Assembly (NCBI RefSeq): GCF_025154015.1
Contig: NZ_JAOAMV010000004.1
Location: 1-64,000 of the forward strand
DNA length: 64,000 nt
DNA from: Tsuneonella litorea
GTDB taxonomy: Bacteria; Pseudomonadota; Alphaproteobacteria; Sphingomonadales; Sphingomonadaceae
Reading direction: 5' to 3'
Below the pieces are notes generated by a model that saw nothing but the letters and a program-made list of their open reading frames with translations, did no database searches and was not told the origin of the DNA. Position numbers and translations under genes: made by a program. Below, one piece after another: positions 10,713 through 14,999 of this stretch (position 1 is its first letter; each line of letters starts with the position of its first letter).

Positions 10713-11630
10713 ATGACCGACAAACCCACCGACGCAGCACTCGTCGCCGACCTCGTCGCCCTGCTCGATCCCGCGCCGCTGGGCGACGACCGCTTCGAGG
10801 GCGCCCGCAAGAAGGGCGGCGTCGGCCGCGTGTTCGGCGGCCAGGTCATCGCCCAGGCGCTGATCGCGGCCGAGCGAACGGTCGACGAGGACCGCGCGGC
10901 GCATTCGCTCCACGCCTATTTCCTGCGCGGCGGGAACGAGGAATATCCGATCACGCTCGACGTCGACCGCCAGCTCGACGGGGGCAGCTTTTCCAACCGC
11001 CGCGTCGTCGCCAGCCAGCCCAGGGGCGATGGCGATCCCGAAGGCGGGATGCAGCCGATCCTCAACCTCGCGGCAAGTTTTCAGAAGCACCAGCCGGGCC
11101 TCGAGCACGAGCGCGTAGTCCTGCCCGCGGTGCCGCCGCCGGAGGACCTGCGCTCCGACGAGGAACTGCGCGCGGAAATCGCGCCCACGCTGCCCGAACG
11201 GGTCCAGCGATTCTTCAACGAGCCGCGCCCGATCGAGATTCGCGCCGCCACGGGTCGTCACTGGCTGACCGAGGGGCCGCAGGAGCCGGTCCAGCACTCG
11301 TGGTTCCGCGCCCGCGCGCCCCTGCCCGACGACCCGCGAATCCACCGCGCGGTGCTCGCCTACCTCAGCGATATGCAGCTTCTGGGCACGAGCATCATGC
11401 CGCACGGCCTGTCGTGGATGCGGGGCGAGGTGAAGAGCGCCAGCCTCGACCATGCGATCTGGTTCCACGCACCGTTCCGGGCCGACGAATGGCTGCTCTA
11501 TTCGTGCGACAGCCCGTGGTCGGGCGGCAGCCGCGGGTTCAACCGGGGACAGATCTTCCAGGACGGGCGACTGGTCGCCAGCGTCGCGCAGGAAGGCATG
11601 ATTCGCCGGGTCGAGCCGCGCGCGCGATAG
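10713..11630 (+). CDS. tesB: acyl-CoA thioesterase II (TesB)
   Basis: Double hot-dog thioesterase that hydrolyses medium- and long-chain acyl-CoA to free fatty acid and CoA. The 305-aa product has the N-terminal GRVFGGQVIAQAL and HSLHAYFLRGG of the first hot-dog. The second contains the characteristic SLDHAIWFHAPFRADEWLLY and SRGFNRGQIFQDGRLVASVAQEG, cut here into its two ends for brevity. The ATG at 10713 was chosen by the family N-terminus; the upstream open extension overlaps the preceding gene. Confidence 0.93.
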   Translation: MTDKPTDAALVADLVALLDPAPLGDDRFEGARKKGGVGRVFGGQVIAQALIAAERTVDEDRAAHSLHAYFLRGGNEEYPITLDVDRQLDGGSFSNRRVVASQPRGDGDPEGGMQPILNLAASFQKHQPGLEHERVVLPAVPPPEDLRSDEELRAEIAPTLPERVQRFFNEPRPIEIRAATGRHWLTEGPQEPVQHSWFRARAPLPDDPRIHRAVLAYLSDMQLLGTSIMPHGLSWMRGEVKSASLDHAIWFHAPFRADEWLLYSCDSPWSGGSRGFNRGQIFQDGRLVASVAQEGMIRRVEPRAR

Positions 11631-11677
11631 AATTCGCGGCAAGCTAACCCGGTCTTAACCCCGTTGGACCACCCTTT

Positions 11678-11696
11678 CTCCGCAACCCCCGCGGAG
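11678..11696 (+). promoter_or_regulatory. hairpin covering the ribosome-binding site of the PilZ-XRE gene
   Basis: CTCCGC (11678-11683) pairs perfectly with GCGGAG (11691-11696) over a 7-base loop. The 3' arm contains the only Shine-Dalgarno-like GGAG before the TTG start at 11706, so the hairpin would hide it. Confidence 0.45.
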
Positions 11697-11705
11697 TAGA
11701 GCCAC

Positions 11706-12350
11706 TTGTCCATCGAAGCCCGTTTCGACACCGAAGATAGCACCGATCCGCGCGGCGCCGGCCGCCGCACGCTCCACCTCGGGGTCAGCGGCCGCTTCGC
11801 GTCGGGCAGCAAGGGCGCCGTCACCGTTCACAACATCTCCGCGACCGGCCTGCTCATCGAGACCGCGGCGGCGCTGGCGGAAGGCGAGACGATCGTCGTC
11901 GATCTGCCGGAGGCCGGCGAGCGCCATGCGCGGGTCGTGTGGGCCGACGCCCCGATGCACGGCTGCCGTTTCGACGACCCACTTACCCCCGCCGCGCTCA
12001 GCGCGGCGCAGTTGCGCGGTGCGGTCCGGGACGGGGATCGCGGAGACCGCACAGTCAGCGAGGATTTCGGTGTCCGCCTCCGCCGCCTGCGGACCGAACG
12101 CGGCCTGTCGCTTGCCGACATCGCCGATCGCCTCGGCGTCAGCAAGCCAACGGTCTGGGCATGGGAACACGGCAAGGCGCGCCCGGTCGAGCGCCGCCTG
12201 GCTGCCCTCGCCGAAGCCCTCGGGGTCACGACCGGCGGTCTCGAACCGGCGGCCTCCGGCCCTGTCGAGGCGGTCGAAGCCGGCCGGCGCCAGATCGCCG
12301 AGGCCTATGGCGTAGAACCGGCGCGGGTGCGCATCATGATAGAGCTTTAA
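11706..12350 (+). CDS. PilZ domain - XRE helix-turn-helix fusion protein, putative c-di-GMP-responsive regulator
   Basis: A 214-aa two-domain protein. Residues about 15-100 form a PilZ-like domain with both binding signatures: R16-x3-R20, and N43-x-S45-x2-G48 (NISATG) 23 residues later. Residues about 120-180 form an XRE/Cro-type helix-turn-helix: the LADIADRLGVSKPTVWAWEHG stretch holds the two helices (about 137-156). A last helix (VEAGRRQIAEAYGVEPARV) may aid dimerisation. PilZ domains bind c-di-GMP, so a ligand-controlled DNA-binding protein is the natural inference. The start is TTG at 11706, the family-like N-terminus, with its GGAG inside a hairpin. The next gene encodes a degenerate GGDEF protein. 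Target genes and ligand binding are untested. Confidence 0.8.
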   Translation: MSIEARFDTEDSTDPRGAGRRTLHLGVSGRFASGSKGAVTVHNISATGLLIETAAALAEGETIVVDLPEAGERHARVVWADAPMHGCRFDDPLTPAALSAAQLRGAVRDGDRGDRTVSEDFGVRLRRLRTERGLSLADIADRLGVSKPTVWAWEHGKARPVERRLAALAEALGVTTGGLEPAASGPVEAVEAGRRQIAEAYGVEPARVRIMIEL

Positions 12351-12397
12351 GTCAAGCGAACCCCAGAAAGAGCTTGCAAGTTTTCCACAATTCGAAA

Positions 12398-12473
12398 AAG
12401 AAAACGTGGTTAACAAATCGCGTTTTCTTCTGATTCTACAAATCGTTAGTTAAACATAACCGTCAAACTAACG
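12398..12473. promoter_or_regulatory. AT-rich block with two inverted repeats, candidate operator
   Basis: This 255-bp gap between the PilZ-XRE and GGDEF-like genes is strikingly AT-rich for the window. It holds AAGAAAACG (12398-12406) facing CGTTTTCTT (12421-12429), and CGTTAGTT (12444-12451) facing AACTAACG (12466-12473); both pairs have 14-base spacers. A third CGTTAGTTTA copy is at 12553-12562. The first repeat could instead end transcription of the upstream gene, since it finishes in TTTTCTT. The rest of the gap holds a weak TTGTTC/GATACT promoter-like pair before 12510. Confidence 0.5.
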
Positions 12474-12605
12474 CGATTGTTCAACGGAACCGAGGGTAGC
12501 GATACTCTTTTACGATGGTTGCGTTAGCGGGATCTGGCGCAACCGGGGGCAACGTTAGTTTACCGGGTCGGAGAATGCCGATTCGGGAAGGCGTCGAACG
12601 GGGGC

Positions 12606-13487
12606 GTGAACAGGATGTGGGGCGCAATTTCGCCGGGGGAAGCCTCGGCACTCTATCGGCTGGTAGCGCAAAGCCCGACCGATCTCGTGCTGAAGACCGA
12701 CAGGATGGGCCGCATCGTCCATGCGACCGCCGCAACGGGCGGCCTCGGCCTCGCCTTCGCCGGCGACCCGGTGGGACGGCATCTGCTCGAACTGCTCCAT
12801 CCCTCGTGCAGCGAGGCCGTGCTTGCCGAGCACGCCGCCGCAGTGCGCGGGCAGGACGGCAGTGGCTGGATCGAGGTTCTCGTCCTGGCGCAGGACGGAT
12901 CGCAGCGATGGATGGAGATGAAGCTCGGCGGCCTGCCCGAACGGTGCGGCGCGCTCGGCCTGCTGCGCTCGATCGACGAGCGCCGCGCGCTCGAGGACCG
13001 GCTGTTCGTCGCCGCGATGACCGACCCGCTCACCCGCCTGACCAACCGCGAGGCCTTCGTGCGGATGCTCGGCCACCTGGTCGAGAGCAATGCGTCGGGC
13101 CACGTCGCGCTGTTCGACCTCGACCACTTCCGCACGATCAACCTGCGCCACGGCCACAGCGGCGGGGACAAGGTGCTGGTGGCCTTCGCGCGCCTCCTGC
13201 GCAGCCTGCTGCGCGCCGACGACATCGTCAGCCGGGTCGGCGGCGGCACCTTCGGCGTCCTCCTGCCCGAGGTCGACGCGGCGACAGCCCACAGCGCCTG
13301 CGCCAGGGTGGTCGCGGCGATGGCCGAGCTCAACGAGGGAGCGGGACGCCACCGGTTGACCGCCAGCGCGGGCGTCGCGCGGTTTGCCGTCTCCGCCGAT
13401 TCGACGCTGCGCGAGGCGGAACTCGCGCTGCTTTCCGCGAAGTCGCGCGGCCGCAACCGGGTCGAGCGCGCGCGCCGCTGGCACTAG
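12606..13487 (+). CDS. PAS-GGDEF protein with degenerate active site (GGGTF), probable c-di-GMP receptor
   Basis: A 293-aa cytoplasmic protein. Residues about 12-125 form a PAS-like sensor and about 130-290 a GGDEF domain. Most of the GGDEF fold is intact (DPLTRLTNRE 140-149, FDLDHFRTIN from 170, HSGGDKVL), but the signature loop is GGGTF at 212-216 in place of GGDEF, losing the catalytic acidic residues. The inhibitory-site motif R203-x-x-D206, five residues ahead, is kept. By family knowledge this pattern suggests a c-di-GMP sensor rather than a cyclase. The start is GTG at 12606 (GGGGGC just before); ATG 12615 is possible. It converges on gatB with 6 bp between stops. Confidence 0.85.
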   Translation: MNRMWGAISPGEASALYRLVAQSPTDLVLKTDRMGRIVHATAATGGLGLAFAGDPVGRHLLELLHPSCSEAVLAEHAAAVRGQDGSGWIEVLVLAQDGSQRWMEMKLGGLPERCGALGLLRSIDERRALEDRLFVAAMTDPLTRLTNREAFVRMLGHLVESNASGHVALFDLDHFRTINLRHGHSGGDKVLVAFARLLRSLLRADDIVSRVGGGTFGVLLPEVDAATAHSACARVVAAMAELNEGAGRHRLTASAGVARFAVSADSTLREAELALLSAKSRGRNRVERARRWH

Positions 13488-13493
13488 GGCCGA

Positions 13494-14999
13494 TCAGCCG
13501 TCGAGCTTTTCCTTGAGCAGCTGGTTGACCACCGCGGGGTTGGCCTTGCCCTGCATCGCCTTCATCGTCTGGCCGACGAAGAACCCGAACAGCTTGTCCT
13601 TGCCGCCGCGGTATTCGGCAACCTTGTCGGCGTTGCCGGCGATGATCTGGTCGATCGCGGCCTCGATCGCGCCGGTATCGCTGACCTGCTTGAGGCCCTC
13701 GGCCTCGGCGATTTCCGCGGGTTCGCGGCCGGTCCTGAGGACGATCTCGAAGATTTCCTTCGCCTGTCCGCCCGAAATCTCGCCGGCAGCCTGCATCGCG
13801 AGGATTTCCGCCTGCGCGGCCGCTGTGGCGTTCGCCGGGTTCGCCTCGGCGCCAAGCGCGTTGATCACGCCAGGCGCGACCGACAGCGACCAGTTGGCGA
13901 CCTGTGTCGCGGCGTCCTTTTCGCTCTTGCCGAGCTTGGCCGCGGTTTCGGCGAGCAACTGCTCGAACCGCGCGTAGGTCTCGACCTCGGCGGTCAGTTC
14001 GCGCGCGTTGTATTCGGTGAGGCCCAGCGCCTCGACATAGCGGCGCCGTTTGGCGTCGGGCAGCTCGGGGAGCGAGGCGCGGCACTCGGCAAGGAAATCC
14101 GCGTCGAGTTCGAGCGGCAGCAGGTCGGGATCGGGAAAGTAGCGATAGTCGTGCGCGTCTTCCTTCGACCGCATCGAGCGCGTCGTGCCGGTGTTGGGAT
14201 CGAACAGCCGGGTTTCCTGCACCACGACGCCGCCGTCCTCGATCAGGTCGACCTGGCGGCGCGCCTCGTGCTCGATCGTCTGCATGACGAAGCGGACGGA
14301 GTTCACGTTCTTCGTCTCGGTCCGGGTGCCGAACGCCTCGCCCGGCCGGCGCACCGAGACGTTCACGTCGGCACGCATCGAACCTTCCTCCATGTTCCCG
14401 TCGCAGCTGCCGACGTAGCGCAGGATGGCGCGCAGCTTGCGGACATAGGCCCCGGCCTCGGCGGGTGAGCGCATGTCGGGTCGGCTGACGATCTCCATCA
14501 GCGCGACACCGCTGCGGTTGAGGTCGACGTAGGACATCGACGGGTGCTGGTCGTGCATCAGCTTGCCCGCGTCCTGTTCGACATGGATGCGCTCGATGCC
14601 GATGACCTTGTCGGCGGGAATCCCGGCCTTCTCGTCCGCCTCGATCGTGAGCGATCCCTCACCCACGATCGGGTGGTAGAGCTGGCTGATCTGATAGCCC
14701 TGCGGCAGGTCGGCGTAGAAGTAGTTCTTGCGGTCGAACCGGCTCCACGCGTTGATCTCGGCGTCGATCGCCATGCCGGTGCGCACGGCCTGGCGGATGC
14801 ATTCGCGATTGGGCACCGGCAGCATCCCCGGCATCGCTGCATCGACCAGGGAAACCTGGCTGTTGGGCTCCGCGCCGAATGCCGTCGCCGCCCCGCTGAA
14901 CAGCTTGGCGTTGGAGGTGACCTGCGCGTGGACCTCGAGGCCGATCACGACCTCCCATTCGCCAGTAGCGCCGTGGATGCGGTAGTTCGATGTCGTCAT
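13494..14999 (-). CDS. gatB: Asp-tRNA(Asn)/Glu-tRNA(Gln) amidotransferase subunit B (GatB)
   Basis: Kinase and tRNA-binding subunit of the GatCAB complex, which activates mischarged Glu-tRNA(Gln) or Asp-tRNA(Asn) so ammonia from GatA can amidate it. The 501-aa product has the N-terminal [10 protein letters not shown], the [20 protein letters not shown] block (first 20 residues), [16 protein letters not shown], and a C-terminal YqeY-like tail domain. It is separated from gatC-gatA by a methyltransferase gene, all on the same strand. The ATG at 14999 matches the family N-terminus. Confidence 0.96.

Follow-up and report, generated by a model that had tools for sequence, protein, structure and literature searches.

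The window (i.e., the whole 64,000-nucleotide stretch of Tsuneonella litorea DNA that was analyzed) contains two neighboring genes on the forward strand, which encode a PilZ-XRE fusion protein and a PAS protein with a degenerate GGDEF domain. The fusion gene (positions 11706 to 12350) opens with a TTG codon at a start position shared by its relatives and encodes 214 aa; its architecture was derived from the open reading frame, Pfam profiles, an AlphaFold model, and structure comparison. The PilZ domain (residues 16 to 107; positions 11751 to 12026) was matched by PF07238 over residues 37 to 97 (E value, 3.7e-6; 27.7 bits against a cut-off of 22.5) and carries both membership motifs of the family, [RK]x3R as R16-x3-R20 and [DN]xSx2G as N43-x-S45-x2-G48, with R16 and R20 falling outside the Pfam-aligned part. 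The XRE domain (residues 121 to 181; positions 12066 to 12248; recognition helix SKPTVWAWE) is a Cro/C1-type helix-turn-helix (HTH) by profile as well as by fold, matching HTH_31 (PF13560; 2.9e-15; residues 120 to 175, above the cut-off) and HTH_3 (3.7e-13). It is followed by a C-terminal helix and a tail ending in VRIMIEL, which are conserved in alignments (residues 186 to 214; positions 12261 to 12347). The AlphaFold model of the fusion (mean pLDDT, 80.1; pTM, 0.47; pLDDT below 50 at residues 1 to 26) consists of a six-strand barrel plus helix and then a five-helix HTH. Foldseek matched this model to the Alg44 PilZ domain with c-di-GMP (E value, 5.4e-4; TM-score by query, 0.29; rmsd, 5.2), and VIA-align matched it to the PilZ region of BcsA (Z score, 10.2) and its HTH to the P22 C2 repressor (Z score, 12.7; 67 residues; rmsd, 1.3).

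The partner gene encodes 290 aa (positions 12615 to 13487), as judged from sequence and fold (the AlphaFold models were built from 41 and 37 alignment rows). Its start is most likely the ATG at 12615 rather than the GTG at 12606, since near relatives align from that methionine, which is nearly invariant. The protein comprises a PAS domain (PAS_4, PF08448, 4.2e-6; positions 12681 to 12986) and a GGDEF domain (PF00990, 2.6e-30; positions 13014 to 13460), in which GGGTF (13239 to 13253) stands in place of the active-cyclase signature GG[DE]EF. Its inhibitory-site (I-site) motif, RADD (13212 to 13223), is intact and in register. Upstream of the fusion gene lies what we take to be an acyl-CoA thioesterase-like gene, and downstream of the partner, on the other strand, there is presumably a gatB-like gene. 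A reading made from the sequence alone (the sequence-only reading) had described a PilZ signature joined to an XRE HTH, a PAS-GGDEF protein with a lost active site and a kept RADD, and AT-rich, palindromic DNA between their genes, all of which the profiles, the motifs, and the base composition reported below bear out.

Searching 296 genomes of the order for the fusion gave some match in 260, many of them to one domain only. Among the matches listed, those spanning both domains were picked by eye as fusions; at most 10 candidates were scored per genome, so weaker fusions may be missing. After removal of repeated loci for a single gene, recognized by their identical last 150 aa, and of matches with one domain only under the profile (L093 among them), 89 distinct fusions were examined. 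In 43 of them, a same-strand PAS-GGDEF gene follows; the other 46 lack it, and their flanks mostly extended about 5 kb per side and were shorter at contig ends (L050, L065, L090, and L092). The recognition-helix string S[KR]PT[VI]WAWE occurs in all 43 paired fusions and in none of the 46 unpaired ones, and a match to the partner profile begins 120 to 310 bp after every fusion with this helix (43/43), on the same strand, versus 0/46 of the others. Thus, the adjacency in related genomes that the sequence-only reading had proposed as a check holds for every fusion with this helix, across eight genera. The 43 pairs come from 40 of the 296 sampled genomes and from three named Tsuneonella loci. Sorted by genus code, the sampled genomes with a pair are 7/7 of g1 (the genus of the window), at least 21/23 of g3, at least 5/15 of g16, at least 2/3 of g15, 2/2 of g33, and 1/1 each of g41, g26, and g31. 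When the long reading frames around 40 pairs were clustered, only the fusion and partner clusters were common to all eight genera, and the pairs lie in at least two kinds of surroundings. The two-gene module is real.

On the tree of the fusions, the paired state changed twice (one to three times in bootstrap trees), compared with about 30 times in shuffles, and the tree did not settle on a single origin of the paired fusions. No fusion was matched outside the family of the window, either with the protein as query (2 of 385 class genomes matched) or with a profile, which hit 7 of 398 genomes of the phylum and 2 of 385 of the class, every one within the family, in searches that scored 7 to 8 candidates per genome and could therefore have missed distant fusions. 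Two of the seven phylum matches (G030 and G065) extend over little beyond the PilZ part. A loose pattern for the C-terminal tail fits 43/43 paired and 44/46 unpaired fusions. Reading frames of 130 to 133 aa in G240:C43, G215:C46, and G119:C1 keep the same XRE and C-terminal region (approximately residues 115 to 214) and have no PilZ domain, indicating that the tail travels with the XRE part. Two unpaired fusions, L049 (G080) and L053 (G240), adjoin a larger GGDEF reading frame on the opposite strand (741 and 799 aa, respectively), so an association with GGDEF proteins may extend beyond the module. Elsewhere, two PilZ-XRE fusion genes stand in tandem (L042; G267:C3), and several genomes of genus code g6 have two or more unpaired fusions each.

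The intergenic region (positions 12351 to 12614) is AT-rich and contains conserved candidate regulatory elements, as seen from base composition and repeat counts. The G+C content of positions 12351 to 12605 is 0.486, compared with 0.684 over the whole window, placing this interval at rank 81 among 63,746 segments of 255 bp, and in 43/43 pairs the intergenic G+C content is below that of its own locus. Inverted repeats are present, including CGTTAGTT/AACTAACG, and across relatives such repeats exceed those in dinucleotide shuffles. In 42 intergenic regions (L020, a near-copy of L106, was left out of the DNA motif counts), GTTAGT/ACTAAC occurs in 33 (4.5 expected from shuffles), GATTCG/CGAATC in 39 (6.6 expected), and TTAG-N18-CTAA in 19 (0.10 expected, and 4 for the next inverted spacing), although shuffles overstate significance and understate similarity by descent, because the sequences are related. 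The exact TTAG-N18-CTAA is absent from the other 23 regions. Aligned sites give a fuller dyad of approximately TTAGTC-nn-GTAA-nn-TTAC-nn-AACTAAC. The layout differs in Tsuneonella, where GTTA-N8-TAAC and GTTA-N20-TAAC are each found in 7/10 intergenic regions. In the window, motif searches located the dyad GTTAGT-N16-ACTAAC, a candidate operator, at 12445 to 12472, and further forward-strand GTTAG half-sites lie at 12523 to 12527 and at 12554 to 12558 (within CGTTAGTT). GTTAG and CTAAC together occur 10 times in the 64 kb, with 5 of these occurrences inside the module. Among the matches listed, the intergenic regions of relatives with genus code g3 have a strongly conserved block of TATGGTAAAC and TTGATTCGTTTTTTAGTC ahead of the dyad; this block may be a promoter that includes a GANTC methylation site.

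How rare a site is in the rest of a genome is unaffected by the kinship of the sequences. Among 39 other pair-bearing genomes, TTAGT-N16-ACTAA was matched exactly once in each of 12 genomes and never in the other 27, and all 12 sites lie between the fusion and partner genes. The reversed control pattern gave 46 matches in the 39 genomes, a rough yardstick only, because its word content differs; outside the module locus, the true dyad is rarer than this control. TTAG-like words may themselves be rare in these genomes, which would alone make the dyad rare. In the genome of the window, 12445 to 12472 is the sole dyad site at up to one mismatch. With up to two mismatches, the dyad was found in 7 of 12 genomes (including G113, a genome without a known pair), each time at the pair locus, and the control was matched in 2 of the 12. 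The dyad is absent from the 300-base flanks of all 46 unpaired fusions, where GTTAGT occurs upstream in one and downstream in two and where the recognition helices are different, as expected if the S[KR]PT[VI]WAWE XRE domain binds the dyad. Since its exact form is confined to a single position per genome and adjoins a gene that encodes a repressor-type HTH, the dyad is most simply read as the operator of the fusion itself. Of the earlier proposal that the fusion acts on the palindromes, their conservation and the restriction of the exact dyad to this locus in the genomes searched, with its absence from the 46 other loci, now stand; the sites themselves are candidates.

Other roles for this DNA were considered. 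No Rfam family matched at its gathering score within 11500 to 13600, and a simple scan of the same interval revealed no terminator-like or sigma-70-like site. A replication origin was rejected: TTATCCACA, which we take to be a DnaA-box word, occurs in only 3/42 intergenic regions (the window has TTTTCCACA), the G+C skew of the window exhibits no clear sustained switch at this region, and the position of the locus varies among single-contig genomes.

A second candidate element precedes the fusion gene. This direct repeat, TAAC-N7-TAAC (CTAACCCGGTCTTAACC; positions 11644 to 11660, forward strand), is a candidate operator or CtrA-like box; the repeat is found upstream in 10/10 Tsuneonella pairs and 15/32 other pairs (0.0 expected in shuffles), and the upstream and intergenic repeats have no one common layout. 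The CtrA box has the layout TTAA-N7-TTAAC, of which the repeat at 11644 is a version with one mismatch, and GANTC is the site of CcrM. The conserved sites might thus belong to another regulator (e.g., CtrA or a GcrA/CcrM-type cell-cycle system), with the fusion acting elsewhere or only on protein partners. This reading, which we consider doubtful, draws on the CtrA-like layout, on the presence of [CT]TAA-N7-TTAAC upstream of 23/42 pairs (and 4/46 unpaired fusions), on the enrichment of GGTTAA upstream of unpaired fusions (23/46 versus 2.8 expected), and on the prevalence of GATTCG/CGAATC in the intergenic regions. However, the full TTAA-N7-TTAAC box has no match in the genome of the window, and a global regulator should have many sites, whereas the exact dyad has none outside the locus in the 39 genomes. 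The shorter form CTAA-N7-TTAACC has six sites in the genome of the window (two for the control), which gave no clear regulon among the matches listed, leaving a CtrA identity of the upstream repeat putative. One of the six sites (G000:C27:111217-111233; L133) lies just before a GGDEF gene with an intact GGEEF.

The partner proteins have lost the intact signature of an active cyclase throughout the module. The glutamate at the fourth position of GG[DE]EF is found in 0/43 partners (one of them with an alignment gap), and the acidic residue at the third position is kept in 27/43. The equivalents of PleD D327 and N335 are kept in 18 and 21 of 43, respectively, and all three residues occur together in 5/43, in which weak catalysis may persist. 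The functions ascribed here to the third-position acid, D327, N335, and RxxD follow the consulted portion of a review (PMC7288161), and the importance of the fourth-position glutamate is taken solely from the GG[DE]EF motif. The entry segment TD-x-LT-x-L-x-NR is nearly invariant. The partner likely keeps the GGDEF fold and this segment for a role apart from synthesis. Of 19 PAS-GGDEF relatives that are part of no pair (with G156 apart), seven were examined and all seven keep GGEEF, which makes an active cyclase the probable ancestor of the partner. These same-family proteins (L137 to L143) resemble the partner over PAS and GGDEF (35 to 39% identity) but are approximately 600 aa long, with an N-terminal extension and an intact GGEEF. 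An initial assignment of such proteins to GGDEF-EAL, made from their length, was dropped; their PAS-GGDEF part is C-terminal. A closer PAS-GGDEF relative (L136; G156:C22; 46%) has GGETF, with no fusion in the 10.9 kb fetched around it, and may mark either a halfway point in the decay or the loss of a module. In G194 (L026/L111), an internal stop codon interrupts the partner gene and the fusion gene is open, which may reflect a decaying partner or an assembly error.

PopA is a degenerate GGDEF protein that acts as a receptor or scaffold, and the partner, which shares with such proteins a GGDEF fold without an intact active-site signature, could similarly use its I-site to act as a second receptor for c-di-GMP. 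The consulted portion of a 2025 review (PMC12564702) treats degenerate GGDEF receptors as an established class, and the RADD of the window is compatible with membership. Still, this explanation is unlikely for the module as a whole, where RxxD is intact in just 13/43 partners (5/10 in Tsuneonella) and where, unlike in the known receptors, a PilZ-XRE gene stands beside the partner gene in every pair examined. The earlier suggestion that the partner serves as a second c-di-GMP sensor therefore fails as a general property; since RADD is intact in the genome of the window, its partner may sense c-di-GMP in a lineage-specific manner.

The ligand residues of the PilZ domain have been kept. R20, N43, S45, and G48 are present in 43/43 paired fusions. 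The first Arg occupies its strict alignment column in 35/43, and a pattern allowing a shifted register fits 43/43 paired and 39/46 unpaired fusions. Reading of c-di-GMP by the PilZ domain is likely the selected function in the pair, and the fusion probably reads c-di-GMP. That the PilZ domain has instead lost c-di-GMP binding and only dimerizes the DNA-binding domain, leaving the PAS partner to drive the switch, is highly improbable: there are known PilZ-like domains that lack a c-di-GMP switch (from a title among the references of PMC12564702), and the strict-column count and the low model confidence at residues 1 to 26, which hold R16 and R20, would suit such a role, but the constancy of the ligand residues and the decay of the c-di-GMP sites of the partner argue against it. 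One Tsuneonella genome (G274) carries a second, very divergent PilZ-XRE-like gene (L085) whose PilZ ligand motif is not recognizable.

The domains, the linkage of the two genes, the loss of residues, and the fact that the sites are both conserved and rare are established directly, and from them we infer binding of c-di-GMP, DNA, or partner by the fusion. An operator of its own, taken together with the PilZ motif, points to a local c-di-GMP switch, and we hold with about equal belief and doubt that the fusion responds to c-di-GMP and regulates both its own gene and that of the pseudo-cyclase. The PilZ domain would bind c-di-GMP, as its conserved ligand residues and fold suggest. Binding would then alter how the XRE domain, probably as a dimer, is seated on GTTAG/CTAAC half-sites upstream of the fusion gene and between the genes. 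This would set the expression of the fusion and of the downstream PAS-pseudoGGDEF gene, which the position and rarity of the sites suggest as the main targets. The partner, probably once an active PAS-GGDEF cyclase that kept its fold as the intact active-site signature was lost, might finally return a PAS-sensed signal by binding either the fusion or active cyclases. This last, weakest step is a best guess and the least certain of the four. Against a local switch stand the regions and genomes that lack the exact dyad and the differing layouts of the repeats; moreover, it is unusual for a regulator to have essentially a single target region, and the candidate operator could belong to another protein. 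A wider regulon is possible, as weaker sites would escape the exact pattern. Overall, the linkage and operator ideas of the sequence-only reading have gained support alongside the conserved PilZ ligand residues, and its second-sensor idea does not generalize.

Several characterized systems resemble parts of this module. BldD of Streptomyces, a regulator of the XRE type, is like the fusion in being an HTH protein under c-di-GMP control. The fusion scores 20 bits against the BldD equivalog (NF050110, NCBIfam), for which the cut-off is 250. BldD differs in binding a c-di-GMP tetramer through its C-terminal domain, as described in the consulted portion of PMC7288161. MrkH of Klebsiella likewise uses PilZ as the c-di-GMP input to a DNA-binding protein but, in the portion consulted of the 2025 review (PMC12564702), combines it with a novel DNA-binding domain, whereas the DNA-binding part of the fusion is a canonical Cro/C1 HTH. 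A PilZ receptor is also known in a related bacterium, Erythrobacter (Qipengyuania) flavus; this protein, mPilZ-1753, has 123 aa and acts by contact with thiosulfate dehydrogenase, with no DNA-binding domain mentioned in the part of the report consulted (PMC10267684), and its length rules it out as a characterized version of the fusion. In keeping with the earlier remark that a PilZ-XRE fusion was not known to have been characterized, a search of the open-licence literature by title and abstract start found no description of one. The term "XRE" has a count of 0 in both reviews (PMC12564702 and PMC7288161), whose consulted portions mention no PilZ domain joined to a Cro/C1 HTH; likewise, "PilZ" is absent from the text of a survey of c-di-GMP enzymes in five orders, including Sphingomonadales (PMC9756655).

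A stronger form of the proposal, which we advance tentatively as a possibility short of an expectation, is a one-locus c-di-GMP circuit, in which its own two-gene locus would be the only high-affinity target of the fusion and the pseudo-cyclase would be both the main product under its control and its PAS-sensing partner. The combination of PilZ with a repressor-type Cro/C1 HTH, examined here in 89 distinct copies within a single bacterial family, makes a simple design that can be tested, and the pseudo-cyclase is a signaling enzyme whose catalytic residues have decayed but whose gene linkage has been kept. Because the conserved sites are rare, the relation between regulator and operator is directly testable, and these sites provide a candidate c-di-GMP reporter. 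If the one-locus circuit is true, these bacteria would combine c-di-GMP with a second signal without a regulon.
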